In this document: positions 16,770-37,258 of the stretch, piece by piece
Layout of the letters: each line of letters opens with the position of its first letter
How positions within the stretch are numbered: the stretch's first letter is position 1
Source of the DNA: Anaerolineales bacterium
Lineage (GTDB): Bacteria; Chloroflexota; Anaerolineae; Anaerolineales; UBA11579
Direction of reading: 5' to 3'
DNA: 64,000 bases
Assembly (NCBI GenBank): GCA_019637755.1
Contig: JAHBVC010000001.1
Span: 372,001 to 436,000, forward strand
Made by a program: the position numbers and the translations under genes
Notes under the pieces: model-generated
Seen by the model: only the letters and a program-made list of their open reading frames with translations
What the model was told of the DNA's origin: nothing
Databases searched by the model: none

Positions 16770-16783
16770 CACTCAAGCGCGGG

Positions 16784-20101: not shown

Positions 20102-20542
20102 TTAACCCTTTGTTTCCATGCCTTCCAACATGACAATGTATTCGGCGGGCAATTCATGTTCTTTTGCGCCGCTAGTGATGTAAGCCATATATTCTGCAGT
20201 CGGTGGCGCTCCGGTTAGTTTGTCAGAAATGTAGGTCTCTGCATTTACCACCTTCCCATCAAGTTCGACTTGCATAGTTACGCGATCATATCCGTTTTCA
20301 AATGCATCAAGACGGCTAAGGTCGGCTTTGGAAATTTCGAAGACAACACCCCAAACTGTGTCACCTTCTGCCCTAAAAATATTGCCCTTACCGCTCCCGT
20401 CGGCACTTCGTTTATTACAAACAAATTTGTATCCGTCCAATGTGGCGCTACCAATTGGCTTGGCACTTGGGATGCGTTCCTGCATTCGACGATTCAGCAT
20501 ATTTGAGCCGTAAGCATATACATATGGCAATTTTTCCTCCAT
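20102..20542 (-). CDS. GGCT-fold (gamma-glutamylcyclotransferase-like / AIG2-like) protein
   Basis: 146 residues from ATG 20542. It has the fold's signature VYAYGSNMLNRRMQERIPSA near the N-terminus and the catalytic-type glutamate in SRLDAFENGYDRV. Family members release 5-oxoproline from gamma-glutamyl peptides or amines. The ATG overlaps the stop of the type III restriction gene by one base (TGATG), so it is the third gene of that operon. Its partner role in a restriction system is not known to me; a damage-control or cofactor-related task, or chance capture, are options. Confidence 0.8.
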   Translation of the reverse strand: MEEKLPYVYAYGSNMLNRRMQERIPSAKPIGSATLDGYKFVCNKRSADGSGKGNIFRAEGDTVWGVVFEISKADLSRLDAFENGYDRVTMQVELDGKVVNAETYISDKLTGAPPTAEYMAYITSGAKEHELPAEYIVMLEGMETKG

Positions 20543-23500
20543 CACCGACTAATCTTGTTGAATATCTTTCCGATGTACCCATCTGGATCATCTTTTTGGA
20601 AGAGTATGTTCCGCTTCTCCCATTCTGCCTGACTCATGTTTTCCATTTGCAAAGGAACTTCATTTAGGGGTGTGCTCGAAACTATGAAGGAGTGCAAATG
20701 GACATTTTTATCGGCTAATTCTTTTTCAAGGGCTTTGATCTCCTCGAAAAAGGTGATCTTCGGATCCTCGACCCCGATATTTCTAATCCCTTTGGGATCA
20801 ACGAACGCCACCTGCTGGATTCCTTCCTCCACAAGCCATAGGATAAAGTCGGGATAGAAATTACCAGCTTCGAAAAAGCCGATGCCGCTCCCGCGACTCC
20901 GGTTTCTAAGGAGATACATTTCCTTATTTGCGAACAGTGCAGCATTGGCCTCATAGAAATTCTTTAGATCAGAGACAAAAGTCATTTCTCCTTCATTCAA
21001 TGCCACAGGCTTTATTTCCAACTCCATACCCTTGCCTAAATAAAGTAGTGGCTGATAGAGATGCTGACCAAACATAATCGATGCAAAGCGCTGATATTCA
21101 ATCGACCGGAATTTTCCGCCGACAACCGCATCTTTTATCTCGTTTAATATTTTAATGATGTCGTGCCGCGACTTCTCTACCTGGATTCTGTATTCATCGA
21201 AGAAATTTGAGTCATCCGGTGAAAGGTCTTGGTACTCCAACAAATCGCTTTCCCACTTAGCTTTCTGGTACTTATAGTATGCATCCGCGTATTTCTTGAG
21301 CAGTGCCGATGCAATTTCTTGCCAACGGAAGACCTGCTCAAAACCCCGGAATTCCATTTCGTCCGGTGGGATATACAGTTGGTACCACGATCCATCTACT
21401 AATAGTTTCTCGATTCTTTCGCGTGGGATGCTCAGGTTATCCCAACCCCGCTCACCCTTGTAATCCTGTAAATCGAAATAGAGCTTATCAACGTCAAGGA
21501 ATGCAATGTGTTTCGATTCAAACTTGCCCTTATTCAATAAGGCAACGTTTTCTTGACCTTCGAAGCTTGAAAGCGCCTGAACTCGCGGGTACCAATTAAC
21601 ACTGATGGGTTTGCGCTTTTGTCGCTCGTCTGGAATATCTAAAATAGGCGTTGGTGCGTCACGCTTGAAATCCTTGCCGTCTTTAACTTTTATGATCTTT
21701 AGCTTCTGCTTGCCAAGTGCCTTCACGACGGGCATAACAAACTCAACCTTTTGCTTGGCAGGTGCAACGCCTTCGTCGCGCAAGTATTCCTCGAATTGTC
21801 GCATGTAGTCGGCACGGACACCAAAGACATTTAGGGTCTCCACCAATGGGAGATTCGGAGGTGCAGCATCCTGGGTAGCGGTACTTCGTTTCAAACTGAA
21901 ATTCTTACCCTTTAGGCGAACTCCCCGGCCGAATAACTGAATAATCTGCGTGCCTTCTCCCCTACCTACGTTGAGCAAACCCATGGTTGAAACCCGCCAA
22001 CTATTCCATCCCTCCATAAACTTGCGAGAACCGACGAGGATGTTGATATTGGAATCAGCTTTGTCCAACTGTTGAAAAATCGATGTTGAAATAGGTTGTT
22101 CTTCGACGATCACCTGCTCACCAAAACCTTCCGCCATCTTGCACAAGCTATTGGCATCGCCTACGTTTACTATTCCAAAATACTCGTTATCTCCCAGGCG
22201 TAGACCAATCTCTCCAGCGGCGCCTTTAAGGTTTTCCATCACAAGCCTGGCGGGTTGTTCACTGTTAAACAACGCCAAAAGAACGGCGTTGTAAATTTCC
22301 GTGGCGCTATTTCCTAAAGAAGCTAAATACTGAAAGCTATTCTCAAAAATATCATTACGGTTCTGATCTAGCAGACCGGCTTTTCCCTTTAGGAAACCTT
22401 CTAACAATTCAATATTACGTTCCCGCTTTTCAGGCGAAGCGAAATCTGCAAGAAACAAGATGACATCCAAGACATCGGATACTTGCTGCTTATTTTGCTT
22501 TCGTATTGCATTGACGCTGCTTCCCACAAAGACCCAGAGCGGTTTTTCAATGAGGTATGCCTGAATTTGGGACGCGTTGCCTTGATACACCGCCTGCTGT
22601 TGATAAAAAGCCAAGAGGCATGCGCTCAGGTATCGGTAACGTTGTTCTTCGTCAGAATCGTCCTCCATATTAAGGATTCGGTATTCTTTTCCATAGCCGT
22701 CGCCGTAAAAATATCGATAGGAATAATCAAACAGGACACTTTTCGCATAAGCTTGTAACAACCCTTTGTCGGTTTTTACTGCCTGGCCGAAAGTCGCTGA
22801 ATACTCGAACGAAAAGCCGTCCTCACAAAGCGCGTTACGGCGGCTCATCCAAGCGCCCTCACCCCCGCTGCTTGCTCCCGTGTGACCTTCGTCTACCATG
22901 ACAAGGTTGCGGCCTTCAAAAGCGGCCACATTGATTGTTTTCTCTCCAGTAGTCTCAGCGAGCTTGTTAATATCAATAATTTCAACGTACCCGCCACCAG
23001 CGAAACTGCCCAGCGTTTGTTTTGAGAAAATGGTGGCGGCGATTTTCGACAAAGCGAATTCCCGTAGATGTTGTTCGGATAATCCTTCATTTGGAGTCAA
23101 TAGAATCACCCGATTGATCTCCCTACTTCGCCGATGTTGCGTTAGATAATGCTGGTATTGCAGCAAATTGCAGTGCATTAACAACGTCTTACCACTGCCG
23201 GTTGCCATCCAAAATGCCAGTTTGTTTAGTTCGCTTTCGCGAAATGCTTCTATCTGGTCTACAACTTGCTTGCCCAAATTGAAGCCCTCAATCGATCTGT
23301 TGATTTCGATCAACAAAGACGACGGGTTTACAAAATATGCATCCAGGTAAATTTCTACAAGCAGAAGCGCTAAATACTGAAAGTATTTCAGGTGGAGAGT
23401 ACGCCCTTCCCGCAAATTGCGATTCTCAGTGATCCGTTTCCAGTGGCGAACGATGTTCTGGTCGTATCTGAGCAAATCATCTTGGGAGATCTGGCTGGCA

Positions 23501-23685
23501 GCAAGGTGAGCCGCCAGCGCCTCGTAAAAATGGCTAGTTCCTTCTGAATTAAAACCTTCTAATTCGTCGCCGGAGAGCCAATTCTTTAGCTGCTCGAAAT
23601 CGCTAACACCCAACCTATCAAAAACCCATCGCTGAAGAATGAGCTTTTGCTCGAACGGGAGACCATTGGACGCTTTGCGCGGCAT
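20542..23685 (-). CDS. res: Type III restriction endonuclease, Res subunit
   Basis: 1047 residues. The SF2 motor begins with Walker A ATGSGKTLL (about residues 161-169) and has motif II VDEGHTG (Asp265). A helicase C-domain follows, with IQLFGRGVRLKG as motif VI. At the C-terminus a PD-(D/E)xK nuclease is visible: YPDFILW (Asp946) and FVDPKG (Asp963, Lys965). Together with the Mod subunit it would translocate or slide and cut 25-27 bp from pairs of inversely oriented unmethylated sites. It begins 3 nt after the mod stop and is intact over its full length. Confidence 0.93.
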   Translation of the reverse strand: MPRKASNGLPFEQKLILQRWVFDRLGVSDFEQLKNWLSGDELEGFNSEGTSHFYEALAAHLAASQISQDDLLRYDQNIVRHWKRITENRNLREGRTLHLKYFQYLALLLVEIYLDAYFVNPSSLLIEINRSIEGFNLGKQVVDQIEAFRESELNKLAFWMATGSGKTLLMHCNLLQYQHYLTQHRRSREINRVILLTPNEGLSEQHLREFALSKIAATIFSKQTLGSFAGGGYVEIIDINKLAETTGEKTINVAAFEGRNLVMVDEGHTGASSGGEGAWMSRRNALCEDGFSFEYSATFGQAVKTDKGLLQAYAKSVLFDYSYRYFYGDGYGKEYRILNMEDDSDEEQRYRYLSACLLAFYQQQAVYQGNASQIQAYLIEKPLWVFVGSSVNAIRKQNKQQVSDVLDVILFLADFASPEKRERNIELLEGFLKGKAGLLDQNRNDIFENSFQYLASLGNSATEIYNAVLLALFNSEQPARLVMENLKGAAGEIGLRLGDNEYFGIVNVGDANSLCKMAEGFGEQVIVEEQPISTSIFQQLDKADSNINILVGSRKFMEGWNSWRVSTMGLLNVGRGEGTQIIQLFGRGVRLKGKNFSLKRSTATQDAAPPNLPLVETLNVFGVRADYMRQFEEYLRDEGVAPAKQKVEFVMPVVKALGKQKLKIIKVKDGKDFKRDAPTPILDIPDERQKRKPISVNWYPRVQALSSFEGQENVALLNKGKFESKHIAFLDVDKLYFDLQDYKGERGWDNLSIPRERIEKLLVDGSWYQLYIPPDEMEFRGFEQVFRWQEIASALLKKYADAYYKYQKAKWESDLLEYQDLSPDDSNFFDEYRIQVEKSRHDIIKILNEIKDAVVGGKFRSIEYQRFASIMFGQHLYQPLLYLGKGMELEIKPVALNEGEMTFVSDLKNFYEANAALFANKEMYLLRNRSRGSGIGFFEAGNFYPDFILWLVEEGIQQVAFVDPKGIRNIGVEDPKITFFEEIKALEKELADKNVHLHSFIVSSTPLNEVPLQMENMSQAEWEKRNILFQKDDPDGYIGKIFNKISR

Positions 23686-23688
23686 TTA

Positions 23689-26600
23689 TTAGCCTTCCCC
23701 AGTCTCTTCAAACATCAGACGATGAAAGGCTTCCTCAATTAAGTGTACGTTCCAAGAATCGTCTTTTGTTTTTGCATTAGCTAGGTTGTGATCACCGTTT
23801 ACATAAATGTCAGTTACCTCAGATAGGTCTGAGGCAATTCCTTGTTTAAAAAATTTCGTCAAGGCCGCATTGTCCATTTTGGATACATCGCGCCACATGA
23901 CCAAAACATTTCGGTCGTCTCCGGTGTTCCCACGAACAACGACCACGCCATCAAGGTATCGCATGGTTTTTACGTGCAAACCAAGCAAATAGTTGAAAGT
24001 TTCCACCAGGTCGACATTCTTAGCTTCGGCTTCACCCACAGTTCCATCAGCAATCAACATTTGATAGTCAAAAGGAGTATTGAACTTTTCAATATTTAGC
24101 AGGCTGCCCTTCGCCTCGACGTCCAGCATGTAGCGGAGGATAAAATCATTTCGAAAATCAGCGTTGCTATCTAATGCAAGTTGCTGATCCGCAGAACGGA
24201 ACAATTGCAGGTTGTTAAGTGAGTCTTCGTAGCTTTCAAGTTTTATGTATTTAAAGGCATGGCTTATTCCTTCCCTCGCGATTGGTTTTCCATCCTTCCA
24301 GTCCCGCGAGTAGATCGCTTTTTCAATTCTAGGTTTTGTTACATCATCAAAGTATTTTCCCATTTCAACAAGGATATATCTTCTGCTTTCTCCATCCTCT
24401 CTCTCTAAATCAATCAGAGCATGACCAGTAGTCCCAGAACCCGCAAAACAATCAACGACGATGTCATCAGACGAACTTGAAACAACAAATAAAGAATCCT
24501 TTACTGTATACAATGATTTTGGAAACGAAAATACTCTTGCTTCTCCAAACATGTTCTGCAAGAGTTTTGTCCCGTGAGAGGACGCGTCATATTTGCTACC
24601 CACCCAGACCGACTTTGGGCGGATACCATCCTTAAGCCGATCAACAATTTGGACCTTCCAGGTGCCTTCCCTATTTCTAACAACTTGAATTTCACCCTTT
24701 TCGAGATGTTGCTGAAAAGATGGTGGGGTTTTACGCCAAACACGCTGTTTCCCATTGCTATCAATTGGTAGTATTTCTGCCCAACCCTTCTTTTTCTCCA
24801 AAGAAATACCATTTGTTTTCTCATCATAGAAAATGGGATAGTATGAGTTCGGACGCTCAAAAGGAGTCGAGTACCCTCCAGTTCGCAGGAAATCTCGCCA
24901 TTTGAAAGCTCCTGCCGCATCCTCTTGCTTATAGGCTTGCTTCTGATCCTCCGTAAGCCCGAAAAAGTTGATTTCGACGCGTCCAGGATTCTTTGAAAAA
25001 ATCAGTAAGTACTCGTGTGAGGTGGCAAGGAATTCGTCGTTGGTGCGCCCGGAGGGCTTGATTTCAATTACGAGATTCCCCAAATGGTTTTCTTTGCCAA
25101 AAACCAATTCACATAGATTAATTAAAACTGGCAATTCAAAATCATCGATGGCAACTTCAATAACCCCGTCCTCCTGAAGGAGATCACGCAATATCGACAA
25201 CCTTTCAATCATCATGGCGGCCCAAGAGGAATGCTTGTATTCGTTCTTATAAAGGAATGTTTCCTCTACGGTATTGAATGGAGGGTCAATGTAGATGCTC
25301 TTGATCTGATTTTCGAATCTAGATTTCAGGAGAGTTGTAGCTTGAAAATTCTCACTTTGAACCATCACGCCATTCATTTGAGCATCGAGATTATCGAGTT
25401 TTTCCAACAACCTATACTTAAAGCCAACGTCAAAAAAGAATGTGTCAACAACCAAAAAGCTATTCGCTTTCAAAAACTCAGTTTTTAACGGTTCACTGTA
25501 CTCAACCTTAAATAGATCGCCTTTCTTTATCTGATCAATTGAAAAAAGCCGAACCCATTCTTTTCTTTGTTGGTCGTTTGCTGCTATCTCGGAATAGAAC
25601 TCTTCGGGAATGCGATCCAAGGTGATGCAATAGTTGGTTTCAACGACAAATTTCTTTTTGAGCCATAGCTTTTTCTGAAAGTCCTCGATCTGAGCGAGGA
25701 AATCAATCAGCCGGTGAGCGATTAATCGAATCACCCGAACCTTACTCAGGTATTGCTCAACTCGAGGGGCTGTTTCATTTTCAACATTATCGAGCTGCAT
25801 AATCTCGTTCTTGATATAGAAATCGAGTTCACGGCGGAGGAATTTCCCCAGGTCTTTATGGATAAAGTAGTCCTGGGTGTTGCGTTTCGTGTAATCCTCA
25901 AGGTGTTTTTCTACTAACGTACGCTTGTTGTTTTTCTCTGTTGGCACTGGAGTCGCCAGTTCCAATAACACATCTTTTTTAGCTTTGTCTTTTTCCTTTT
26001 CCCTCAACTTATAAATCACTTCTATGGAGGCTTCGTTGCATTTAGTCTGGGATCGGCTCTGCTCATCCCCCTGAAAGTGGAAATGAAAGACAGGCTCATT
26101 GCCTAGCCAGGAAATAGGTTCAGCACTGAGGATAAAACGGCGCTTTTTATCTTCGGCTTCTTTGCGATTATCCTTTTCAACCTCGGCCTCGCTCAGCTTA
26201 AAATGAGCACGCTTTCCCGAAGGCAACTGGAAGGAATAGTCTCGAAAATGCTCCGTTGTTTTTACGTAAAACTGATCATGATTAGCCCAATGTAGTTTTA
26301 CCTCCTCGCCCTCATAAGGAATGGCATACACGCCATCTTTGTAGCGGCGCTGTGAAATGAAGTCTCCTTCGTCATAGTAGCGGCTAAAGAAGTTGTATAG
26401 CGCAGAATAGACTTGGTTTTCAAGTTCAGTTAAGTCAACCGCGTAACTAGCTATTTCTTCACGGATTTTTCGAGCGGCTGGTGCTTCATCTGGGTTTTCC
26501 AACCCGGCTTTTTTTGCACTTTCAATAGCCTCAGCTAGCTGCTTTTCCTTCTGTTTTTTATCCAGAGAGTCATATTGAGAAAACGCGGTTTTTACCTGCC

Positions 26601-26742
26601 TCAATAGTTCTTCGTCTAGAAAACGGTTGATCTCGTCCCGCCGCTGGTTTATGACGCGATAAATCCCAAAATCCAGGTCGGCTTGGTTTGTTTGAAATAG
26701 CTCTTTGAGCAACCCCGATAGCTTTTCGAATTGTTTCGACAT
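23689..26742 (-). CDS. mod: Type III DNA methyltransferase, Mod subunit
   Basis: 1017 residues, long for the family. The order of motifs is beta-class: IDPPFNT (Asp486) precedes CFAGSGTTGHAL (Phe766-Gly770). The target recognition region lies between them. The extended N-terminal 480 residues are charged and helical. It would methylate an N6-adenine in an asymmetric site on one strand and supply specificity to Res. A GGAGT ribosome site precedes the ATG. It is the first gene of the mod-res-GGCT operon. The recognised sequence cannot be inferred. Confidence 0.93.
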   Translation of the reverse strand: MSKQFEKLSGLLKELFQTNQADLDFGIYRVINQRRDEINRFLDEELLRQVKTAFSQYDSLDKKQKEKQLAEAIESAKKAGLENPDEAPAARKIREEIASYAVDLTELENQVYSALYNFFSRYYDEGDFISQRRYKDGVYAIPYEGEEVKLHWANHDQFYVKTTEHFRDYSFQLPSGKRAHFKLSEAEVEKDNRKEAEDKKRRFILSAEPISWLGNEPVFHFHFQGDEQSRSQTKCNEASIEVIYKLREKEKDKAKKDVLLELATPVPTEKNNKRTLVEKHLEDYTKRNTQDYFIHKDLGKFLRRELDFYIKNEIMQLDNVENETAPRVEQYLSKVRVIRLIAHRLIDFLAQIEDFQKKLWLKKKFVVETNYCITLDRIPEEFYSEIAANDQQRKEWVRLFSIDQIKKGDLFKVEYSEPLKTEFLKANSFLVVDTFFFDVGFKYRLLEKLDNLDAQMNGVMVQSENFQATTLLKSRFENQIKSIYIDPPFNTVEETFLYKNEYKHSSWAAMMIERLSILRDLLQEDGVIEVAIDDFELPVLINLCELVFGKENHLGNLVIEIKPSGRTNDEFLATSHEYLLIFSKNPGRVEINFFGLTEDQKQAYKQEDAAGAFKWRDFLRTGGYSTPFERPNSYYPIFYDEKTNGISLEKKKGWAEILPIDSNGKQRVWRKTPPSFQQHLEKGEIQVVRNREGTWKVQIVDRLKDGIRPKSVWVGSKYDASSHGTKLLQNMFGEARVFSFPKSLYTVKDSLFVVSSSSDDIVVDCFAGSGTTGHALIDLEREDGESRRYILVEMGKYFDDVTKPRIEKAIYSRDWKDGKPIAREGISHAFKYIKLESYEDSLNNLQLFRSADQQLALDSNADFRNDFILRYMLDVEAKGSLLNIEKFNTPFDYQMLIADGTVGEAEAKNVDLVETFNYLLGLHVKTMRYLDGVVVVRGNTGDDRNVLVMWRDVSKMDNAALTKFFKQGIASDLSEVTDIYVNGDHNLANAKTKDDSWNVHLIEEAFHRLMFEETGEG

Positions 26743-26809
26743 CTTTTACTCCTGCCTTGATTCTATGCGCATGGATAGTTCCTGTCCATCTTATAGATCA
26801 GAACGACAC

Positions 26810-27883
26810 CTATTCAAGCAACCCCTTATACTTTTTTGCTAACCGATACTTTCGCGCTTTTCGCGACGGGTCAGCCACATCTAGCCATCCATCATTTACC
26901 CAGGTTGACATCAAGACTCTGGCTTGCCGGTCAGATACACCCAAGAGCCTTGCTACTTGGGATGACTGAATCAGATCTTGCTGAGCAAAAAGACCCAAAA
27001 CTCTACGAGCACGGTGGTCGAGGTCATGAAGAAATCTTTGCTCGGCTGTAACTTTGCCACTGGCCTGAGTTAGGATCACACCTGCTACCTTTTCAAACAC
27101 GCCAGCCATGCCTTTTAGAAAGTACTCCAGCCAGGGAGTGATGTCCGCTTTATTTCGCCCTTCGTAATAATTGTGATTAGGATGTGTGACTAAGGCTTGG
27201 TAATACCCATCTAAGTCCTGGGCGTAAAACTCTTCCAAAGAATAGAACTTGCCTAGGTCATAACCTCCCAGATACAAAATCCAAGTGGTCAGCAAGCGAC
27301 CTGTTCGCCCATTGCCATCGTAAAACGGATGGATGGTTTCAAATTGGTAGTGGGCAATTCCGGCAACCACAGGTACCGGCACCTCTTTTACGGAATTATT
27401 GATCCAATCCAATAGTTCTTTAATAAGCTTGGGAACATCTTTGGCTTCTGGTGGCAGGTACACGATTTGCCCGTCGGTCTCTCGAATGACGTTCTGCCCG
27501 TCTCTGTAAGCCGAAGGGCGCGCTCGCCCACCCTTCATGATTTGTGCATGAAGCTTGCGCAATCTTTCCTCGGTGATTCCCTGCCCCTTCTCCACCCATT
27601 TCTCCATTTGCTGCAAAGCAAGGTAATAGCGCTCAACTTCTTTGACATCGCGTTCTCGCCCAGGAAAAAGTTTTCCCTGCTGGATAACTTGCTCTGTCTC
27701 TTTGAGGGTTAAGCGATTGCCTTCAATGCGGGTCGAATAATGAGTCGCCCGTAACTGTGCTTGGGTTCGTAGTTGCTCCGCTAAAGCCGGGGGCAGCACT
27801 ACATGCCGCAATCGTTCCCGCGCGCTTTCAATCACTTGCAAATTCCGAACTATGGATGTGGTGAATTGAAAACGATAAGGCAT
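26810..27883 (-). CDS. Fic-domain AMPylase with self-inhibitory helix and C-terminal winged helix
   Basis: 357 residues. The Fic core HPFYDGNGRTGR (residues 185-196) has all catalytic residues for transfer of AMP to a protein hydroxyl. Near the N-terminus, STRIEG (50-55) matches the (S/T)xxxE(G/N) inhibitory motif, making this a class II Fic that keeps itself off. The C-terminus (LARLLGVSDRQARVL-like block, then YRLAKKYKG) is a winged helix, suggesting DNA binding and autoregulation. It follows the same strand as the mod-res operon but starts upstream of it. A stress or anti-phage role is plausible but unproven. Confidence 0.9.
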   Translation of the reverse strand: MPYRFQFTTSIVRNLQVIESARERLRHVVLPPALAEQLRTQAQLRATHYSTRIEGNRLTLKETEQVIQQGKLFPGRERDVKEVERYYLALQQMEKWVEKGQGITEERLRKLHAQIMKGGRARPSAYRDGQNVIRETDGQIVYLPPEAKDVPKLIKELLDWINNSVKEVPVPVVAGIAHYQFETIHPFYDGNGRTGRLLTTWILYLGGYDLGKFYSLEEFYAQDLDGYYQALVTHPNHNYYEGRNKADITPWLEYFLKGMAGVFEKVAGVILTQASGKVTAEQRFLHDLDHRARRVLGLFAQQDLIQSSQVARLLGVSDRQARVLMSTWVNDGWLDVADPSRKARKYRLAKKYKGLLE

Positions 27884-27901
27884 CGGGTCAGTATAGCATC
27901 A

Positions 27902-27940
27902 TTGCCGATAAATTACCGTTAATTTGCCGATAAGTTACCG
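27902..27940. repeat. Direct repeats upstream of the Fic gene (operator candidate)
   Basis: TTGCCGATAAATTACCG at 27902-27918 recurs with one change at 27924-27940 (22-bp period), and a partial third copy (ATAAACCGCCG) follows. They start 19 nt before the Fic ATG in transcription direction, a good place for the Fic C-terminal winged helix or another repressor to bind. Confidence 0.6.
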
Positions 27941-27973
27941 ATAAACCGCCGTTATTCTGCCAAAACTTTTAGG

Positions 27974-28324
27974 CTATTCATCCTCAAAATGTTTCCCGTG
28001 ATGCGCTAATAAGTCTTTGAGTGTTTTTGGTTGATAGTGAATATCTCGCTCCACCGGCAATCCAAGCGGCCCGCGCACGGATTGAAGTTCTGAAAGCAGG
28101 AAATACCCAAGCTCAACATCCAGTCCTGCCACCAGCCCAAAGAAAGTGTCATCGCCGTCAAATTCACTGGCGTACCACGTCCAGTTGCTATCAGGTGTAA
28201 AGAATTTGACCAAGGCTTGAGCCATCAATCCCAATTCCTCATTGCTGTTCAAGGGAGGCAATTTTTCGCGGCTAGCTTGATCGAGTAGGTCTTTGCCAAA
28301 CGGTTTTGCCGTTTCTTCTGACAT
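27974..28324 (-). CDS. DUF2958 family protein
   Basis: 116 residues from MSEETAKPFGKDLLDQASRE; I prefer ATG 28324 to the longer frame at 28480. It contains TWYASEFDGDDTFFGLVAGL and ELGYFLLSELQSVRGPLGLP, which I recognise as the DUF2958 family, small proteins common on plasmids and conjugative elements. Molecular role unknown. It is divergent from parA and upstream of the Fic gene on the same strand. Confidence 0.8.
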   Translation of the reverse strand: MSEETAKPFGKDLLDQASREKLPPLNSNEELGLMAQALVKFFTPDSNWTWYASEFDGDDTFFGLVAGLDVELGYFLLSELQSVRGPLGLPVERDIHYQPKTLKDLLAHHGKHFEDE

Positions 28325-28456
28325 GACCCGACAATAGCAAATCCATGCAGTATTTTCTAGTTGACAATCCCCTATTCGCCATGCTTTCATAATCAAAAGT
28401 ACATATTGCTCTGTTGGCGGAAAACCCTTACCGGCTTTCGCTGGCTGAAAGAAAAT

Positions 28457-29209
28457 ATGATCGTTGCAGTTGCCACCCAAAAAGGTGGCACCGGAAAAAC
28501 CACTACCTCGATTTCTTTAGCTGCTGGACTTGCCAGGCTCCACAATAAGAAAATCCTTTTGATTGATATAGACAGCCAGGCTAACACGAGCAAAGTGTTA
28601 GTACCTGACTACCGTTCGCTTCCCAAAGAACAAACTATTTGCGCTACTCTGCTTGATCGTGCGCCGTTGCCAGTCTTACAGTCAGCCGTGCCAGGCCTGG
28701 ATGTCGTCGCCTCGCACATCCTATTGTCCAATGCAGACGTTGAACTAACGACTGCTAAGGATCACCGAGAAGCACGCTTGCGAGACCGTTTAGAGCCAAT
28801 CAGAAGCCAATACGACCACATTTTTATCGACTGTCCCCCTGCGCTTGGTTGGCTGACTATCAATGCCTTTACCGCGGCCGACAGCGTGCTGGTTGTCGTC
28901 GAACCTGGCTATTTCGAGTTAGACAGCATTGTGCAACTGAATAAGACCCTGGCTGAGGTACGTGAGTTCTATCACCCCAGCCTGCATATCTTGGGCTACT
29001 TGTTTACCAAATCAGATCCAACCGTTAACAGCCGCGAGAGCCTCAAGCTCTTGCGCCAGGCATATACCGACAAAGTTTGCCGCACCGTCATTCCCCGCAA
29101 TGTTTCCCTCAAGGATGCGATCTTCAACAAGAAAGATATTTTCGAATTTGAGCCAACATCAAAAGCTGCCCTCGCCTATCAGAAACTTATCGAGGAACTC
29201 TTTATATGA
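28457..29209 (+). CDS. parA: ParA-family partition ATPase
   Basis: 250 residues from MIVAVATQKGGTGKTTTSIS; the deviant Walker A KGGTGKTT is at residues 9-16, LLIDIDSQANTS forms the A-prime region, and HIFIDCPPALGWLTINAF the Walker B part. No N-terminal DNA-binding domain is present, as in small type Ib ParA. With the overlapping ribbon-helix-helix gene it makes a partition pair that would keep an excised circular form of the element in dividing cells. The ATG has a weak RBS (GAAAGAAAAT). Confidence 0.9.
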   Translation: MIVAVATQKGGTGKTTTSISLAAGLARLHNKKILLIDIDSQANTSKVLVPDYRSLPKEQTICATLLDRAPLPVLQSAVPGLDVVASHILLSNADVELTTAKDHREARLRDRLEPIRSQYDHIFIDCPPALGWLTINAFTAADSVLVVVEPGYFELDSIVQLNKTLAEVREFYHPSLHILGYLFTKSDPTVNSRESLKLLRQAYTDKVCRTVIPRNVSLKDAIFNKKDIFEFEPTSKAALAYQKLIEELFI

Positions 29210-29607
29210 GCAAAAAACAACTCAATACTGAAAACGTCCTGAGTGAATTGACGGGCCAGTCGGCTTTCTTCCCCAAAGATGCTGAAACTCCAACACCATC
29301 AGATGAAGTCAAACCGAATACCCGACCGCCCGAACGGGCGACCGAGCGAACGATCGAACGACCGACCGAGCAAACGCCCGAACGGGTTATCGGAACTCCA
29401 GCCAGGCAACACCGGATCATCAGGCGCTACAGTTTTGAAGCCTATGATGATCAAGTAAGGCACCTCAAGAAAATCTCTTTAGAAGCCGAGATCGCGGGGG
29501 AAACACGGTCAATCTCTGAAATGATCCGCGAAGCCGTTGATAGCTATTTGAAAACCCAAAATGAAGTGAACCCGACCCAGCGTTCGACCGAACGCCCGAA
29601 CGGGTGA
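29206..29607 (+). CDS. Centromere-binding ribbon-helix-helix protein (ParB/ParG-like partner)
   Basis: 133 residues overlapping parA by 4 nt (ATGA). The first half has a low-complexity, charged TERxxER-type repeat region (about residues 40-62); the second half has RYSFEAYDDQVRHLKKISLE and SISEMIREAVDSYLK, a strand followed by two helices typical of ribbon-helix-helix DNA-binding proteins. It should bind the CCCGAACGGG and GACCGA repeats that lie inside and just after the gene, and stimulate ParA. The disordered N-terminus would be the ParA contact. Confidence 0.7.
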   Translation: MSKKQLNTENVLSELTGQSAFFPKDAETPTPSDEVKPNTRPPERATERTIERPTEQTPERVIGTPARQHRIIRRYSFEAYDDQVRHLKKISLEAEIAGETRSISEMIREAVDSYLKTQNEVNPTQRSTERPNG

Positions 29608-29635: not shown

Positions 29636-30661
29636 GAAAAAAGACGGACTTGACAACCTTTTTTGCGTGTGCAATTAATAGATTACGCACATTTAAATCC
29701 ACCTACTGAAGTAGAGATGACGACAAGCACCCAATGCATCGTCCTAGGCTGAGGAGCCGAACGAAAGAGGTAGGAGGTCGCGCCGCCGGAGAAAAAAGAA
29801 CGGCAGGGGAGAGAGGAACACAAACGCCTCGGTTTCCCAAGGCGTCGTTACAAGTCTGATGGTCAAGCTAAGGAAACCTGATATGTAGCTTTAGCTTAAC
29901 GATTTTGCGAAGCAAAATAAATCTTAGATTTTGTGAGGGGCGTTGTCAAGCAGTAACCCTTAAGCCTAGCTAGTCGATCTTCCTAAAAGGCAGAAGCAGA
30001 AAATCAACCAGCTAGAGGCGTCAAACACAAGCTTAAACCAAAGTACCAGATCGAACAGATAAAAAACCCACCTTGTTGGAGCAGGTATTGATAAAGGCGT
30101 TGAATGCTCTCAACAGGTGGCCTCAAGCCTTCGGGCATCGAGCCACTCGTCTTGAGCGGGGAGAGCCGCCTTGTTCGGGCAGGTTGCGGGGAAACCGCCC
30201 CGCGCCTTAAAATCGTGTGCCTGCGAATCCTGAAAACAAGGAACGGCACACCATTTCGGCATTACCTACCGCTCACCAAGGCGGTGCGTGTCGGGTTGAG
30301 GCCGAGGTGAAGCGTTTCGGCTCGACCCCGACCGCCAACTCTGCGCCTCTGGTTAACCGTCCTATAGCACGTCCGGTTTACCGCCTGGCGCTACGCTTGT
30401 TGCTCACCTCGCTCGCATCAAGCTAACGTGTTGGCGGTCGGCGTCACACAACGCCGACACGCACGCGGCCGACGGCATCTCCCCGAAACCCTCTGCCTGG
30501 CCGCGAAAATCCTTAAACCTTTAGCCTAGCCTCTTTAGCTTACCAGCCGCCTCGCCTTGTCAAGGACTTCGTCAAAAAGCAACTGCGCAAGTCCGCCTGC
30601 GGCGTCTCCTTGACAAGCCTGCGAACGGGCTGGAGTGTTGCCTTAGCTAGGCAGGAAAAAT
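29608..30661. other. 1.05-kb non-coding region of the element, origin or transfer-site candidate
   Basis: No reading frame here is convincing. Structures visible: a perfect palindrome ATTTTGCGAAGCAAAAT (29902-29918); GCGGGG/CCCCGC near 30186-30203; GTCGGCGT/ACGCCGAC with a 6-nt loop (30437-30458); and an 11-bp inverted repeat CTTGTCAAGGA (30556-30566 and 30607-30617). TTGACA at 29650 could belong to a promoter. Location between the partition genes and the mobilization genes suits an origin of replication or oriT; a structured RNA is another possibility. Confidence 0.5.
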
Positions 30662-31717
30662 TTAGTTACCCACCGAGATATGCCAAGTTGCGCGCTCAAT
30701 GTCCGAGAAATATTCTAGGGTGAAATAAAGATCTGTAACGCCTGGAGAGAATAAATCGTCAGAATCATACACAAAAGTCACGTCTGTGTAATTCCCGTAA
30801 GTGATGAAAATCTTCTCCCCCGCAGACACGATCTCATCCCAAGGCCCATAATCAAACCAGTTATTGATGGAGTACTTAACCCCAAGATTGTCTTCGAGGA
30901 AACCATTTTGGTTAGGGTCCCACCGAAAATAATGATCCTGGTTTGATTGATTCCACAACTCAACCAATAAAAAAATCCTTTCGTCATCAATGTGCCAGTC
31001 AAATAACCTAAACCAAAGATCACCTTCTTTATGCCAATCTTCAACTTCATAAACGGGTCCAAAATTTGGCGTGGCTGAAGATCGGGGAGTCAAGGTATAG
31101 GTCGCAGAGGGGAGAGGCGTGTCGCTCGGAACGCTTGTGGCTGATTGCGTTTGGCTTGGAGTCAAGGTTGGCGTTTCCTGAACTTCAACTACCGTTAGAG
31201 CAGGTTCTGTATCGGTTGCAATACTTTGCGGTTGAGCAAACGCGCCTTGAATAAGCGACAAGCCATCAAAGTACCAGAAGGCAGCGGCGACAACTACAAG
31301 CATGATCAATGTGAGCGGGAAACAAGCTAGCCGAGACCGTCGTCTGGGCGGAGGAACTAACTTGGGAGGCTCGGTAACCACCAAGGCTTTCATGGTCGCT
31401 TCGTCTTGGTCGATCAAGGCTTCGACCTCTGGCTCTATCTGGTCGACGATTTCAACGTCAGGCTCCACAGCTTGCGCTGCCTGCGGTTCAGATTGGACTA
31501 GCGGCCAGTATTCCTCGCGCAGCGTAAATGCCCTAGCCTTTGGCGGCAGGTGCATCAGACCAAGCTTCTGATAAATGTGCTGCATGTGCGACTTGACGCC
31601 TTTAACCGAAATGAAGAGGCGTTCGCCGATATCTCGATACAGAAGACCTTGGCAAAAAAGATCCAGGACTTCGCGTTCCCTGGCGGTCAATTGTCTAAAG
31701 CGTTCGATATGGTTCAT
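30662..31717 (-). CDS. Membrane-anchored LuxR-type regulator with extracellular domain
   Basis: 351 residues. The LuxR helix-turn-helix is at the N-terminus (LTAREREVLDLFCQGLLYRD, about residues 10-55), an acidic linker follows, then one membrane helix (about 130-151, RLACFPLTLIMLVVVAAAFW), a Ser/Thr/Pro-rich stalk (about 170-225) and an extracellular beta-type domain to the C-terminus. Such a one-component arrangement, with DNA binding inside and sensing outside, resembles ToxR/CadC but with a LuxR head. A CAGGAGAG ribosome site precedes the ATG. It lies opposite to the membrane-protein and coupling-ATPase genes, which it may control. Confidence 0.75.
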   Translation of the reverse strand: MNHIERFRQLTAREREVLDLFCQGLLYRDIGERLFISVKGVKSHMQHIYQKLGLMHLPPKARAFTLREEYWPLVQSEPQAAQAVEPDVEIVDQIEPEVEALIDQDEATMKALVVTEPPKLVPPPRRRSRLACFPLTLIMLVVVAAAFWYFDGLSLIQGAFAQPQSIATDTEPALTVVEVQETPTLTPSQTQSATSVPSDTPLPSATYTLTPRSSATPNFGPVYEVEDWHKEGDLWFRLFDWHIDDERIFLLVELWNQSNQDHYFRWDPNQNGFLEDNLGVKYSINNWFDYGPWDEIVSAGEKIFITYGNYTDVTFVYDSDDLFSPGVTDLYFTLEYFSDIERATWHISVGN

Positions 31718-31900: not shown

Positions 31901-32146
31901 ATGCAGCAAAACCCATTCGAAACGCTTCAGTTTGATCGCCGCCTGCGCGTTCGATTGTCACCTAGAGGTCTTTGGCTCCTGGCAGTTGGCGCGCTCTACC
32001 TGCTTTCGTGGTGGCTGTTATCGGCAGGCGCGCTGTTTTGGCTTGGATTGATTGCCATACTCATACTGTCGTGGGCGGCCAGCTTTGCCTGGCGTAAGGC
32101 ATTGCACATCATCGACGTGCTCTTGCACCGGCTCGAAAGAATGTGA
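31901..32146 (+). CDS. Small two-helix membrane protein
   Basis: 81 residues from MQQNPFETLQFDRRLRVRLS with RBS GAAGGAG. Two hydrophobic segments (about residues 24-40 and 44-60) are followed by a basic tail (RKALHIIDVLLHRLERM). The first gene of a plus-strand operon reaching to the coupling-protein ATPase, with 6 nt to the next gene. Probably a membrane component of the transfer or mating machinery; no family recognised. Confidence 0.6.
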   Translation: MQQNPFETLQFDRRLRVRLSPRGLWLLAVGALYLLSWWLLSAGALFWLGLIAILILSWAASFAWRKALHIIDVLLHRLERM

Positions 32147-32152
32147 GGAGAC

Positions 32153-32686
32153 ATGAACGAACCTACCCTATACGATCCGAAAATCCATCTAGCTCAAAGC
32201 AAGCCCACCAAGGAGCTTATGCACTTGAGCATGCGTGAAGGATGGGTGTTTGCCATCCTGGGCATTGCCCCCATGCCCAATGAGCGCATTCGCATGTCCA
32301 AGTGGGAGATCGTGCCCGCCCATCTTGATACCTCTGAAATTCCGGCGCGTCCCCTCACGCGAATTCAAGCAATTTTCGCCGCCGGCATTCGCCCGAAAGG
32401 GTTCGTACTGGTGCACGAATTGCCTGACCAGTTGCCCGCCGGTGCTGCGGACATCATCGACGGCGAATACACGGTTATCAAACCCTATGAAATCACGCTC
32501 GACGTCGGCAAGGTGATCGACCTCGGACTGAAAGCTGTCGGAGCGATGGCAATGGCTACCATCGCGGTTGCGGGTGTTGTTCTGCCAGCCATGTTTGCGA
32601 TGGGCAGCGCGCTGCTATTAGACCCTATCCTGGTCGCGGTCACGGAAGATAACGTGTGGATTGAGATTGATCGTTGGTACGAGTAA
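32153..32686 (+). CDS. Hypothetical protein with C-terminal membrane segments
   Basis: 177 residues starting MNEPTLYDPKIHLAQSKPTK, RBS TGAGGAGAC. The N-terminal 100 residues look soluble (HLSMREGWVFAILGIAPMPN, RIQAIFAAGIRPKGFVLVHE); two hydrophobic stretches follow (about 128-147 and 150-165). It sits between two small membrane protein genes ahead of the coupling ATPase and is likely part of the same complex. No known family seen. Confidence 0.6.
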   Translation: MNEPTLYDPKIHLAQSKPTKELMHLSMREGWVFAILGIAPMPNERIRMSKWEIVPAHLDTSEIPARPLTRIQAIFAAGIRPKGFVLVHELPDQLPAGAADIIDGEYTVIKPYEITLDVGKVIDLGLKAVGAMAMATIAVAGVVLPAMFAMGSALLLDPILVAVTEDNVWIEIDRWYE

Positions 32687-32690
32687 TCAG

Positions 32691-33092
32691 ATGGGCGGCA
32701 ATCTCTTGATGGTAGTCTGCTTCTCAGTTTGCGGGGCTCTAGCCATTGGCGCGATTGGCATCCTTTTGAACTTTCCGCGCCTTTTGCAAGGGTTGCTCTT
32801 AGCGGTGAGATTGCTTCTGCGCGGTTCGTTCCAACTCTATGCTTTTAGTCTCAGCAAGCTTCGCCCCTTGATTTATTCAACCACCGGCCTTGATGTGCTG
32901 TCCCCGCATGCGCGAGTCATCTCGTGCACAGTGCTTTCCCTTGCGATTGGCTGCGGGTTTTTGGTTTGGCTTGGCTGGCACATTGGCTTCTGGTGGCTTG
33001 CCATCTTCACGGCTCATGGCTTACTGATCGGTTCCGTGTGGGAGCACATTGAAAACCCAGGCGAGTTTCGCCTGGGGGAGAGGATGCCATGA
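32691..33092 (+). CDS. Membrane protein upstream of coupling ATPase
   Basis: 133 residues from MGGNLLMVVCFSVCGALAIG. Hydrophobic segments at about residues 5-27, 30-50 and two near 80-115; the tail ENPGEFRLGERMP is soluble. The stop overlaps the ATPase ATG (ATGA), so the two are co-translated. Because the ATPase lacks its own membrane anchor, this gene may supply the membrane half of a split VirD4-type coupling protein. Confidence 0.6.
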   Translation: MGGNLLMVVCFSVCGALAIGAIGILLNFPRLLQGLLLAVRLLLRGSFQLYAFSLSKLRPLIYSTTGLDVLSPHARVISCTVLSLAIGCGFLVWLGWHIGFWWLAIFTAHGLLIGSVWEHIENPGEFRLGERMP

Positions 33093-34462
33093 GCAAGGCG
33101 GCCGAGTGGCTGATGGGTGAGAGAGAAACCGCCTTCGGCTTCACAGACCGTGCAACCCACACCTATGTGGTCGGGCAATCTGGCACCGGCAAATCGCGGG
33201 CGCTTGAGTCTTGGGTTATGCAAGACATCCTCAATGGAAGGGGAGTGGGTGTTATCGACCCGCATGGAGATCTCTTCAACAATCTACTGACTCGCATTGC
33301 CATAAGACACCAGCTTCATGATCGCGTGGTGATCTTCGATCCGCTTGACCCGGATTGGATCGTCGGTCTCAACCCGCTTGAACCAGTCCAGGGCTTCTCC
33401 CAAGAGCGGATTGCGTTGTATCTTACCGACGTTGTGATCAAGGTTTGGAAATTAAAGCCGGAGAACGCACCGCGCATGATTTGGCTTTTGACCAACAGCT
33501 TTCTGGCACTTGCCAACCTCGGGCTGACCTTACTGGATTTGCAGCGCTTCCTGGTCGATAGCGACTACCGTGAAGAACTCACTGCGAAGCTTACCAACCA
33601 AGCTGTGCGCCATTATTTTGAGCGTGAATACCCCACGACCACCAAGTCTTCCCAGCAGTGGGCGACACCGATCCTAAACAAGCTAGGGAACCTGCTATTC
33701 GATCCGGACGTGCGAAGGATTTTCCAAAAGAAAAGCACAGTCAATTTTCGCCAAGTGATTGACGAGCAAAAAATCCTGTTGGTCAATGTGCCAAAGGGCA
33801 TCCTGGGTGAAAGCCTCAGTTCGCTTTTGGCGGCGTTCGTAGTTGCGCACTTGCAAAAAGCAGCGCTATCCCGCGCCAGTTCACCTACCCGTCCACCCTT
33901 CTATCTGTACTTAGATGAGTTTCAAAACTACACCACCGACAATATTGCTGACATCCTGTCTGAAAGCCGGAAATACGCGCTTTCATTGATCCTGGCGCAC
34001 CAATATTTGCAGCAACTCCCCGATGAGCTTCGCAGTGCAGTCCTCAATACCGCTGGCACGATTGTCAGCTTCAGGGTGGGCTACAAAGACGCTATGGAGC
34101 TAGCCAAGGAAATTTTCCCCCGCCCAGATTTCTTTCAAGCCACAGGCTTTCGGCCAAACCTGCGCGCCCCGTGGTTTTTGCCGGTGAGCTTTCCTGGCGA
34201 AAACAAACCCAAGGGTTGGGAGAGACCGGCGCGGGAGCTAGCAAGCCTCGAAAACCGCCAATTCTGGTCTCGCAAAAGAGGCAATCACCAACCCGTGAAA
34301 CAACAAAGCTACTTCATGCCGGATCCAAAGCTCACGCCCGAACTGCAAAACCAGATTCAAACTTTGCGCAACATTAGTGGTCAGCGTTACGCCATCCCCA
34401 AATCAAAGTTGCAATCACATGAGCAATCTCTTGAACCAGACCCTCCACTTTGGACGACCTGA
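33089..34462 (+). CDS. VirD4/TraG-like coupling-protein ATPase (soluble)
   Basis: 457 residues. Walker A VVGQSGTGKS (residues 28-36) is followed by GVGVIDPHGDLFNNLL, LNPLEP, and Walker B FYLYLDEFQNY (Asp276, Glu277), then SESRKYALSLILAHQYLQQL, all typical of the TraD/TraG-VirD4/HerA-like group that pumps DNA through a membrane channel. The N-terminal membrane helices of VirD4 are absent; the membrane genes just upstream may replace them. It points to DNA transfer, yet no relaxase is present in the element. Confidence 0.85.
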   Translation: MSKAAEWLMGERETAFGFTDRATHTYVVGQSGTGKSRALESWVMQDILNGRGVGVIDPHGDLFNNLLTRIAIRHQLHDRVVIFDPLDPDWIVGLNPLEPVQGFSQERIALYLTDVVIKVWKLKPENAPRMIWLLTNSFLALANLGLTLLDLQRFLVDSDYREELTAKLTNQAVRHYFEREYPTTTKSSQQWATPILNKLGNLLFDPDVRRIFQKKSTVNFRQVIDEQKILLVNVPKGILGESLSSLLAAFVVAHLQKAALSRASSPTRPPFYLYLDEFQNYTTDNIADILSESRKYALSLILAHQYLQQLPDELRSAVLNTAGTIVSFRVGYKDAMELAKEIFPRPDFFQATGFRPNLRAPWFLPVSFPGENKPKGWERPARELASLENRQFWSRKRGNHQPVKQQSYFMPDPKLTPELQNQIQTLRNISGQRYAIPKSKLQSHEQSLEPDPPLWTT

Positions 34463-34478
34463 ATGCTAGAGTGAAACG

Positions 34479-35450
34479 ATGCAAGTTGAACAGAAACGCT
34501 TCGAAAGAAAAGTAGCAACGCCACCTATGCGCTTCCAAGTGCGTGATGGCGAAATTCTCGCCGCCATTCACAAATACGATGGTGTTCTTGCCAAGCGTCA
34601 AATCAAGGCGCTTTTCTGGCCTCAGGCAAGCCTACAAGCCATGGAACGGCGTCTGTCCTTGCTCTATCACACGGGCTATCTCAACATGCCGGATTTTGAG
34701 CAAAGACGCATTCATCCCATCTCTGAACCTATCGTCTGGCTTGGCTGGCGCGGCATTCTGTTTGTGGCCAGCCAGTTAGGCATCGAAGTTGACCCGCCAA
34801 AGCCCGTCAACGAAAACCAGCTGCGCCGACTTGAAAAGCGTTTGCGTGAGGCTGGTATGCGCTGGCAGCGCGAACCGCGCTGGAGCCAGTTAGCCCACGA
34901 TATTGCCGTCAACGATTTTCGCCGGGCCGTCGAACAGGCGGCTGATCACTGGCCATCGATTTCCCTTGAGGAATGGATCCCCGAAGGTGACTTCCTCACC
35001 AATATGGACACGATCACGATTTCTGAAAGTGACAAGCGGCGCAAAGGCGTGCGACCGGACGGCTTTTTTATTCTGGTTGATCACTTGCGTCAAATTGACA
35101 ATTCACCGGCAAAGGCACGATTCTTACTGGAGCTTGATAACAGCACCCATCCGCTCAATCGCTTCGGTCGGGATAAGGCGTTGTCAGGCTTGGCTTACAT
35201 CCGAAGCAGTGCGTACAAGAAACGCTTCGGTTTCAATTCCGGCCGCTGGCTGGTGGTTTGCAAGAGTGGCGTCCGCATGCGCAATCTCAAAGCGCAAACG
35301 GAAAAAGTCTTGGGCAGACAAGCCAGCAATTTCCTGTTTACGACTTTCAACAAGGTCACATCCGCGACTGTGCTCAACGCACCTATTTGGTGGCGGGGCG
35401 GATCGAGTGACCTGATCGCGCTAGTCGGCAACATTGGAGTCAACCGTTGA
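34479..35450 (+). CDS. Replication-relaxation family protein
   Basis: 323 residues. The N-terminal winged-helix part (ILAAIHKYDGVLAKRQIKAL, ERRLSLLYHTGYLNM) and a C-terminal part with GVRPDGFFILVD and ARFLLELDNSTHPLNRFGRD match what I know as the Replic_Relax family of plasmid and conjugative-element proteins. The PDG...LELD spacing resembles a PD-(D/E)xK nuclease core. It could act as the DNA-processing protein at the origin, in place of a classical relaxase. It follows the coupling ATPase by 16 nt. Confidence 0.75.
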   Translation: MQVEQKRFERKVATPPMRFQVRDGEILAAIHKYDGVLAKRQIKALFWPQASLQAMERRLSLLYHTGYLNMPDFEQRRIHPISEPIVWLGWRGILFVASQLGIEVDPPKPVNENQLRRLEKRLREAGMRWQREPRWSQLAHDIAVNDFRRAVEQAADHWPSISLEEWIPEGDFLTNMDTITISESDKRRKGVRPDGFFILVDHLRQIDNSPAKARFLLELDNSTHPLNRFGRDKALSGLAYIRSSAYKKRFGFNSGRWLVVCKSGVRMRNLKAQTEKVLGRQASNFLFTTFNKVTSATVLNAPIWWRGGSSDLIALVGNIGVNR

Positions 35451-35980: not shown

Positions 35981-37102
35981 ATGGCAAAACGACGTTACAA
36001 AGAGGGGACGATTTTTCAGAAACCAAACGGTAAGTGGCGCGCCCAAATCGTGCTCAACGGCGGCCGGCTTAGTAAAACTGCCAGCACCCGCACCGAAGCT
36101 CAGGAATGGCTAAGGGCAACCCGGAACCAAATCGATTCAGGTTTGACCCTGCGGGGAGCCAAAACCACCTACGGAGAGTTTCTGGCCGAGTGGTTGGTTA
36201 CGGCCAAGCAACGCCTGACAGTTGGCACCCACTACAGCTACTCACAACTTGCCGCAAAGTACATTCTTCCGGCGTTGGGAAAAATCAAACTGCGTGATCT
36301 AAATCCAAGCTCCATTCAGCGCTTCTACAACCAAAAAGTAGCTGAAGGGGTTGGCTTGCGTACTGTGCAGAAAGCGCACACAGTCATCCACGCTTCGCTC
36401 AATGGCGCCCTCAAAATGGGACTGATTGGCCGCAATCCGGATGATGCCACCCAACCACCAAAGCCAGGTCACAAAGAGATGCGCTTTCTTAATCAAGGCG
36501 AGGTGAAAGTCTTGCTGGAAACAGCCAAACGAACGGGCGACCGCAACTATGCTCTGTACTTTACTGCCATCGTCACCGGCATGCGCCAGGGCGAACTGCT
36601 GGGCTTGAAGTGGGACAATGTTGACTTGGACAAGGGGTTACTCAATGTCAAATTCAGCCTCACCCGCCTGCCAGGTGGCAGCCTCACAATACAGAAACCC
36701 AAGACCAAGTCATCGGAGCGATCCGTAAAACTTGGCAAAGAATCGATCACCGTTTTGGAGGAACACAGAGCACAACAGCGACGAGAAAGGGAACAGTTGA
36801 ATGGCTACTGGCAAGAAACTGGCCATGTGTTTGCTTCAACCGTTGGCACAGCCATCGACCCGACTAACCTTAATCGCCAGTTCTCTCACTTGCTCAAGGA
36901 AGCTGGTCTGGGCAAAGTCCGCTTCCATGATCTCAGACACACCGCCGCTTCGCTCATGCTCAACAATGGAGTGGATGTCTTAGTTGCTTCACGCCGACTT
37001 GGGCATGCCAAACCCAGCATCACTTTGGATGTGTATGGCCATCTCATCCCGTCCGTTCAAGCAGAAGCGGCAGACGTGATGGATCGCTTAGTAGTGAGCT
37101 AA
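35981..37102 (+). CDS. int: Tyrosine integrase of the tRNA-integrated element
   Basis: 373 residues. The N-terminal 50 residues (KRRYKEGTIFQKPNGKWRAQ) form an AP2-like arm-binding domain as in Tn916 integrase; residues 60-165 are the SAM-like core-binding domain; the catalytic domain has TGMRQGELLGL (Arg202), HDLRHTAASL (His316, Arg319), GHAKPS (His342) and DVYGH (Tyr352). All catalytic residues are present. It would recombine at the tRNA-derived 37-bp core, with arm sites at 13473-13492 and 37107-37126. RBS AAAGGAG precedes the ATG. It ends 85 nt from the tRNA gene, the classic layout. Confidence 0.95.
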   Translation: MAKRRYKEGTIFQKPNGKWRAQIVLNGGRLSKTASTRTEAQEWLRATRNQIDSGLTLRGAKTTYGEFLAEWLVTAKQRLTVGTHYSYSQLAAKYILPALGKIKLRDLNPSSIQRFYNQKVAEGVGLRTVQKAHTVIHASLNGALKMGLIGRNPDDATQPPKPGHKEMRFLNQGEVKVLLETAKRTGDRNYALYFTAIVTGMRQGELLGLKWDNVDLDKGLLNVKFSLTRLPGGSLTIQKPKTKSSERSVKLGKESITVLEEHRAQQRREREQLNGYWQETGHVFASTVGTAIDPTNLNRQFSHLLKEAGLGKVRFHDLRHTAASLMLNNGVDVLVASRRLGHAKPSITLDVYGHLIPSVQAEAADVMDRLVVS

Positions 37103-37180: not shown

Positions 37181-37186
37181 ACGAGG

Positions 37187-37258
37187 TGGCGAGGGTGAGA
37201 TTCGAACTCACGACCAAGGGCTTATGAGTCCCCTGCTCTACCACTGAGCTACCTCGCC
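37187..37258 (-). tRNA. tRNA with CAU anticodon (Met or Ile2), reconstituted by the element
   Basis: A 72-nt cloverleaf: acceptor GGCGAGG / CCTCGCC, D arm GCTC..GAGC, anticodon loop CTCATAA (CAU at 37226-37224), T arm GTGAG TTCGAAT CTCAC, discriminator A. CCA is not fully encoded (CCT follows). The stem and the CTTGGTCG after the anticodon arm resemble the CAU tRNAs read as Ile2 after lysidine modification, but elongator Met is equally possible. The 3' half, from the anticodon stem on, is the copy brought in by the element. Confidence 0.9.

Follow-up and report, generated by a model that had tools for sequence, protein, structure and literature searches.

Integrative mobilizable elements (IMEs) of streptococci are compact, with genes in the order coupling protein, relaxase, excisionase, integrase, and one class combines a VirD4-type coupling protein with a relaxase of family PF13814 (PMC5357655), which CONJscan recognises as the MobC superfamily (Coluzzi et al., PMC5357655). 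MOBC relaxases are related to PD-(D/E)XK restriction endonucleases; TraX of plasmid pAD1 has an N-terminal winged helix-turn-helix (HTH), and its active site has been confirmed through mutagenesis (2025 review, PMC12857230). Type IV coupling proteins (T4CPs) lacking a transmembrane domain (TMD), some of them paired with small membrane proteins, such as TraJ and TraI of pIP501, form a recognised subfamily (PMC7434980, PMC13037476). Structured or non-coding elements on integrative elements, namely the sgm-sRNA of SGI1 (PMC9299015) and sso1 of ICEBs1 (PMC4595007), have tested functions tied to transfer or second-strand synthesis. Here we describe a 23.85-kb island in a 64,000-nucleotide stretch of an Anaerolineales genome (the window; GCA_019637755.1, contig JAHBVC010000001.1, positions 372,001 to 436,000), in which a five-gene block is very probably the mobilization module of an IME, acting by the mechanism proposed below. 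The MOBC family, the order coupling protein-relaxase-xis-int and TMD-less T4CPs with small membrane partners are already known; the more novel part of the island is a structured non-coding element upstream of the span that was initially annotated.

Organization of the mobilization module

All five genes of the block are present on the plus strand, and the block runs past 35450 into genes for an excisionase (Xis) and a tyrosine integrase (Int) and then an attachment (att) site in tRNA-Met, giving the island the order M1-M2-M3-T4CP-relaxase-Xis-Int. The features, in coordinates of the window, are as follows.

31901-32146, plus strand: M1, small protein with one transmembrane (TM) segment
32153-32686, plus strand: M2, soluble part of ~135 residues and one TM segment near the C-terminus
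32691-33092, plus strand: M3, about three TM segments, gene overlapping that of the T4CP; proposed to be the membrane part of a split coupling protein
33089-34462, plus strand: T4CP, VirD4/TrwB-type coupling ATPase without a TM domain, 457 residues
34479-35450, plus strand: predicted MOBC relaxase (REL; Replic_Relax, PF13814), 323 residues
35520-35858, plus strand: excisionase (HTH_17 / TIGR01764)
35981-37102, plus strand: tyrosine integrase
13348-13384: attL, 37-bp perfect direct repeat of the 3' part of tRNA-Met
37195-37231: attR, second copy of the 37-bp repeat, inside tRNA-Met
37185-37258, minus strand: tRNA-Met

Shine-Dalgarno-like AG-rich stretches lie upstream of M1, M2, and the T4CP gene. 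The true Xis start is probably internal, because homologues have ~69 residues. The island is bounded by the perfect 37-bp direct repeats of the tRNA-Met 3' part, the integrase gene ends 83 bp from tRNA-Met, and the G+C content is lower than that of the flanking DNA. With its own Int and Xis, att repeats at a specific site, a relaxase, and no mating-pore genes found, the island has the make-up of an IME.

The 323-residue protein as a MOBC relaxase

The initial annotation had proposed a DNA-transfer module without a relaxase, the last protein of which might be an unrecognised relaxase equivalent. A transfer module on a mobile element is indeed present, but so is a relaxase: the 323-residue protein scores 53.2 bits against Pfam PF13814 (Replic_Relax; cut-off 25.3). 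The last protein was thus rightly suspected, although its MOBC family was already known (PMC5357655, PMC12857230), and the known relaxase that was to count against the annotation, were it found in related elements, is this protein itself. Proteins above the PF13814 cut-off are also found in the MOBC-typed plasmid pAM373 (a "replication-relaxation family protein") and in the Chloroflexota plasmid pHAU02. Profile-profile comparison of 17 Chloroflexota proteins with five enterococcal MOBC relaxases gave a probability of 93.1 (E 3.2e-7), and aligned D194/D152, E218/E170, D220/E172, and H140/H102 of REL and the enterococcal pAM373 family; H140, P193-D194, and E218-x-D220 are invariant across the 17 aligned Chloroflexota proteins. 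The "no relaxase" reading was rejected on the PF13814 match, the equivalence of PF13814 with MobC, and the profile alignment with the enterococcal MOBC proteins. The PF05713-type "MobC" accessory protein, a different family of the same name, was set aside.

The predicted structure of REL (pLDDT 87.9) places a winged helix ahead of an alpha/beta core, in which PD193-194 and E218-x-D220 lie on neighbouring strands, bearing out the PD-(D/E)xK-like core anticipated for the last protein. Foldseek searches with the model returned restriction endonucleases first and also listed the N.BspD6I nickase and XisH proteins, all as weak matches (best E 8.5e-3), while VIA-align backs the winged-helix part (Z up to 8.7); the PD-(D/E)xK-like core is further suggested by the order of strands and helices and the PD...ExD positions in the model. 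On sequence and predicted fold, the protein is assigned to the MOBC relaxases of family PF13814 and would be expected to nick DNA.

The coupling protein and its putative membrane partner

The T4CP exceeds the Pfam cut-offs for PF02534 (26.0 versus 20.1) and PF10412 (25.8 versus 20.5), whereas no FtsK/TraB family match was reported for it in the Pfam scan, and its hydropathy indicates no N-terminal TM segment. When a profile of the T4CP was compared with the single coupling proteins of pHAU02 and pAM373, only the motor motifs matched. The M3 and T4CP genes overlap by 4 bp (ATGA), in agreement with the initially annotated soluble coupling-type ATPase overlapping a membrane protein gene, and the two further membrane genes placed upstream correspond to M1 and M2, with one TM segment each. 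Because of this overlap and the gene order, M3 is proposed to supply the separate membrane domain of the T4CP. The suggestion that the membrane and motor parts of VirD4 are split holds insofar as the ATPase has no membrane domain and overlaps a membrane gene; the subfamily has, however, already been named (PMC7434980), and the role of M3 is deduced from position. Homologues of M3 lie directly upstream of the ATPase gene in four related loci (L047, L048, L050, and L051), and short TM-containing open reading frames directly precede it in two others (L023 and L052). M1 and M2 are likewise conserved, as accessory membrane proteins without an assigned role, and none of the three conserved membrane proteins has an assigned family.

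Conservation in related elements

M2-M3-T4CP-REL recurs in other Anaerolineae elements with 26-60% identity, so the block is not a chance arrangement, and for these four genes the conservation in other Chloroflexi elements that had been put forward as a check is there. Relatives of REL occur in 14 of 396 same-class genomes, the window's own included; searches of genome contigs and of viral contigs with the REL sequence gave no relatives. A T4CP profile search of genome contigs identified L046-L053 and L095 as the closest modules, the T4CP of L046 being 73% identical to that of the window. Among the hosts are Ornatilinea (L047), an Anaerolineales bacterium (L048), and Pelolinea submarina MO-CFX1 (L053), whose complete genome makes its copy of the module a possible test system. 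All of L047-L051 and L053 carry M1 and/or M2-M3-T4CP, with REL next except in L051, where the contig ends after the ATPase gene. The order T4CP-REL-(Xis)-Int-tRNA is found in L046, L047, L048, and L095, at tRNA-Met, tRNA-Arg, tRNA-Arg, and tRNA-Lys, respectively (Xis in L046 and L095 was found by tblastn only), and in P. submarina the integrase adjoins tRNA-Arg on the other side of ParA. By an eye count over 23 relaxase loci, the gene immediately before the relaxase gene encodes a Walker-A ATPase in 17, and in 20 such a gene is no more than two genes away.

On the Herpetosiphon plasmid pHAU02 (CP000877.1, L022), the Replic_Relax protein gene overlaps a T4CP-like ATPase gene, with a VirB4-annotated gene nearby. 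The plasmid is typed "non-mobilizable" in PLSDB, a case in which plasmid-typing tools seem to miss MOBC-based mobilization of this kind.

Two further observations concern the related loci. A second TrwB-like ATPase gene is seen near the relaxase gene, on the opposite side from the first, in L023, L026, L027, L030, and L036; the window island has one TrwB-like ATPase gene only. The L049 contig was assigned to a Patescibacteria bin and shares 94% identity with the P. submarina locus across 9.4 kb, reflecting either recent transfer or misbinning.

Proposed mechanism and alternatives

Anatomy, family membership, att repeats, and conservation are observed; from these we infer every enzymatic and transport step of the following scheme. 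Int and Xis would excise the 23.85-kb element at the tRNA-Met repeats, the MOBC relaxase would bind the element's origin of transfer (oriT) via its winged helix, and its PD-(D/E)xK-like site, to which both the family and the residues point, would nick oriT. The soluble VirD4-type ATPase, anchored by M3, would then bring the relaxosome to the channel of a type IV secretion system (T4SS), which a co-resident conjugative element would supply.

A probable need for a helper is suggested by the host genome (2.26 Mb, two contigs), in which VirB4 was not found either with PF19044 or by a search with the protein annotated as VirB4 on pHAU02. That protein itself stays below the PF19044 cut-off; the family is insensitive to it, and absence by this family alone is weak evidence. 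Pfam scans of the element's genes gave no other T4SS family. Since VirB4 was not found, the element is most likely mobilizable rather than self-transmissible, and a helper element is assumed; the "minimal transfer system" of the initial annotation is consequently unlikely.

Several points weigh against this mobilization scheme. Neither the host nor most of the genomes that carry related elements yielded a helper T4SS, the genome of L049 giving one weak match, and a nick site or oriT was not identified in the island. The REL motif is E-x-D instead of E-x-K. The structure model of the T4CP is poor (pLDDT 66.5), and the proposed assignment of M3 as its membrane domain is drawn from gene overlap and order.

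Of the alternatives, decay of the island into an element that no longer moves is improbable, but survives best. In its favour, neither an empty site nor a circular form was observed and a helper was not found in the host genome; yet all module genes are open frames, the att repeats are perfect, relatives at other tRNA genes hold the same order, and the structured element is conserved.

We think it quite unlikely that REL serves chiefly to initiate replication of the excised circle or to regulate that circle, with an ATPase that serves partition or replication and not transfer. The Pfam name (replication-relaxation), the nearby genes for ParA and a protein with a ribbon-helix-helix (RHH) region, and a primase gene near the structured element in L024 would fit such a role, and in some such elements the relaxase may also initiate replication (PMC5357655). 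However, the ATPase scores above cut-off for conjugative coupling-protein families, its linkage to the relaxase gene extends across many loci, and in conjugative MOBC plasmids, pAM373 among them, the relaxase is a PF13814 protein.

There is very little likelihood that M1-M3, together with the ATPase, make up a conduit of their own without a classical T4SS, like Streptomyces TraB or the Thermus transjugation protein TdtA. Some appeal comes from the failure to find VirB4 in the host and in the genomes of five out of six related loci tested, the three membrane proteins without an assigned family, the earlier "minimal system" idea, and T. thermophilus TdtA, which is encoded on a small island integrated at a tRNA gene and bearing DNA-cleaving enzymes as well (PMC5365140). 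Absence from draft genomes is weak evidence, however, and the related plasmid pHAU02 carries a VirB4-annotated gene near its Replic_Relax gene. The ATPase belongs by its matches with TrwB/VirD4, no FtsK/TraB match having been reported, the nuclease is Replic_Relax and not NurA, and the module thus lacks the combination typical of TdtA/TraB-type dsDNA translocation (an FtsK/HerA-type motor with NurA or no relaxase).

As an IME mobilization module, the block would extend MOBC-based mobilization with an own coupling protein to Anaerolineae.

A conserved structured non-coding element

Upstream of the module, between the gene for the RHH-region protein and that for a LuxR-type regulator, lies a structured element of ~370 nt.

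30117-30492, minus strand (favoured): conserved structured non-coding element
30662-31717, minus strand: membrane-anchored LuxR-type regulator, HTH and one TM segment, divergent from the transfer operon

Copies of the element stand upstream of MOBC/T4CP modules in L047 (1841-2240), L048 (2007-2384), L049 (2788-3146), L051 (46-400), and L053 (2783-3141), with further copies in L024 (4893-5327), L025 (14643-15083), and L140 (440-839). In an eight-sequence alignment, the window copy shares 47-57% identity with the remaining seven. A covariance model built from one half of the element, without the L024, L025, and G392 copies, matched these three with E values of 1e-14, 2.5e-22, and 2e-33, respectively; the G392 contig ends close to the element. 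In L024 and L025 the distance from the element to the downstream T4CP gene is ~2 kb and ~1.5 kb, with the same relative orientation, and between element and gene L024 has an AEP-TOTE primase gene with a CHC2 zinc finger (5470-6441), a 324-residue gene occupying the same place in L025. Across the 396 class genomes there were four strong matches (E < 1e-12), three of them in relaxase-bearing genomes and within ~10 kb of the relaxase. Comparison with Rfam 15 gave nothing near a gathering score. The RNA model had no match above chance in L023, L026, L027, L029, L036, L046, L050, and L052; the element is therefore not universal in MOBC/T4CP loci, or has diverged there.

In every copy the predicted fold is far stronger than in shuffled sequences (z -5.7 to -7.4). 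On the minus strand, the eight sequences share 54 consensus pairs, with 94% of cells paired, and both sides have changed in 29 of the 54 pairs, against a mean of 13.9 and a maximum of 21 in 500 shuffles. The minus strand folds better in every copy, with 41 G-U and 6 A-C cells in its alignment, and the plus strand has a weaker consensus. The plus-strand reading was dropped on energies and G-U/A-C counts, and the minus-strand assignment is favoured from folding energies and pair statistics only.

The element could be a non-coding RNA, a single-strand origin, or part of oriT. Tentatively, and with a little less than even confidence, we propose that an undescribed structured RNA or single-stranded DNA element of ~370-440 nt is common to a family of Anaerolineae mobilizable islands and acts in transfer, beside a MOBC relaxase and a two-gene coupling protein. 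By analogy, candidate roles include a transfer-required RNA like the SGI1 sgm-sRNA or a primase-recruiting single-strand origin, and the co-conserved element offers a concrete candidate for an unknown non-coding RNA or single-strand origin in conjugative transfer. The LuxR-type regulator gene is kept in five related elements, and the divergent, membrane-anchored regulator probably controls the transfer operon.

A second conserved non-coding stretch, at 29637-29934, is 70.7% identical to L047 1286-1585 over 311 columns; among the related loci its blastn match is in L047 only, and it contains TTGACA-like and hairpin sequences.

Cargo and other features of the window

The remainder of the island consists of a cargo region and two partition-type genes.

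13635-28351: cargo region, with the genes given below
28457-29209, plus strand: ParA-type partition ATPase (AAA_31), start ATG picked by eye
29206-29607, plus strand: small protein with an RHH region (RHH_1 match sub-threshold), overlapping parA

The cargo encodes an ABC solute-binding protein with two permeases, a KsgA-like rRNA dimethylase, OLD-like AAA/TOPRIM and AIG2-like proteins, a ResIII helicase with an N6/N4 DNA methylase, Fic, and DUF2958. The same solute-binding protein-permease-permease set, at 60-67% identity, stands by tRNA-Arg in an Ornatilinea locus (L145, 9117-13249), together with a KsgA relative 36% identical to that of the window. Relatives of the RHH-region protein adjoin ParA in L027, L145, and L147, and the two proteins probably lend stability to the island once it is excised.

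At 27902-27961, between fic and the DUF2958 gene, an 11-bp sequence (TTGCCGATAAA-like) is directly repeated about five times, a possible operator, centromere, or relaxase binding site. TraX of pAD1 binds direct repeats, and these iterons are a candidate MOBC binding site. Left of attL, at 9510-12788, inspection by eye suggests a further tyrosine recombinase (open reading frame 9510-10472) along with putative recombination genes of phage type, perhaps parts of a second element. Outside the island, a fluoride riboswitch (Rfam RF01734, 52 bits) lies at 62041-62128 on the minus strand.

Comparison with known systems

The island resembles streptococcal IMEs of class 8 (PMC5357655) in its relaxase family, own VirD4-type coupling protein, and compact order by the integrase. 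It differs in having a tyrosine rather than a serine integrase and a TMD-less ATPase whose gene overlaps one membrane gene and is accompanied by two more, and in its Chloroflexota host, ParA/RHH genes, and structured non-coding element. With the enterococcal MOBC plasmids (pAD1 with TraX, and pAM373) it shares a winged HTH and PD-(D/E)XK relaxase with aligned acidic residues and a conserved histidine; those plasmids, in contrast, carry T4SS-type genes, none of which was found in the island. CloDF13 (MOBC1; PMC7434980), likened by description, is also mobilizable with a MOBC relaxase and its own coupling protein, but is a replicating bacteriocin plasmid, whereas the island is integrated. As with TraJ/TraI of pIP501 (PMC7434980, PMC13037476), a soluble coupling ATPase is accompanied by a separately encoded small membrane protein, although the ATPase of the island is paired with a MOBC relaxase and its partner gene overlaps the ATPase gene by those 4 bp. 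Finally, SGI1 with its sgm-sRNA (PMC9299015) and ICEBs1 with sso1 (PMC4595007) likewise carry a structured or non-coding element on an integrative element; compared with these by description, the ~370-nt element of the island has no Rfam match, a covarying multi-helix structure, and a putative function.

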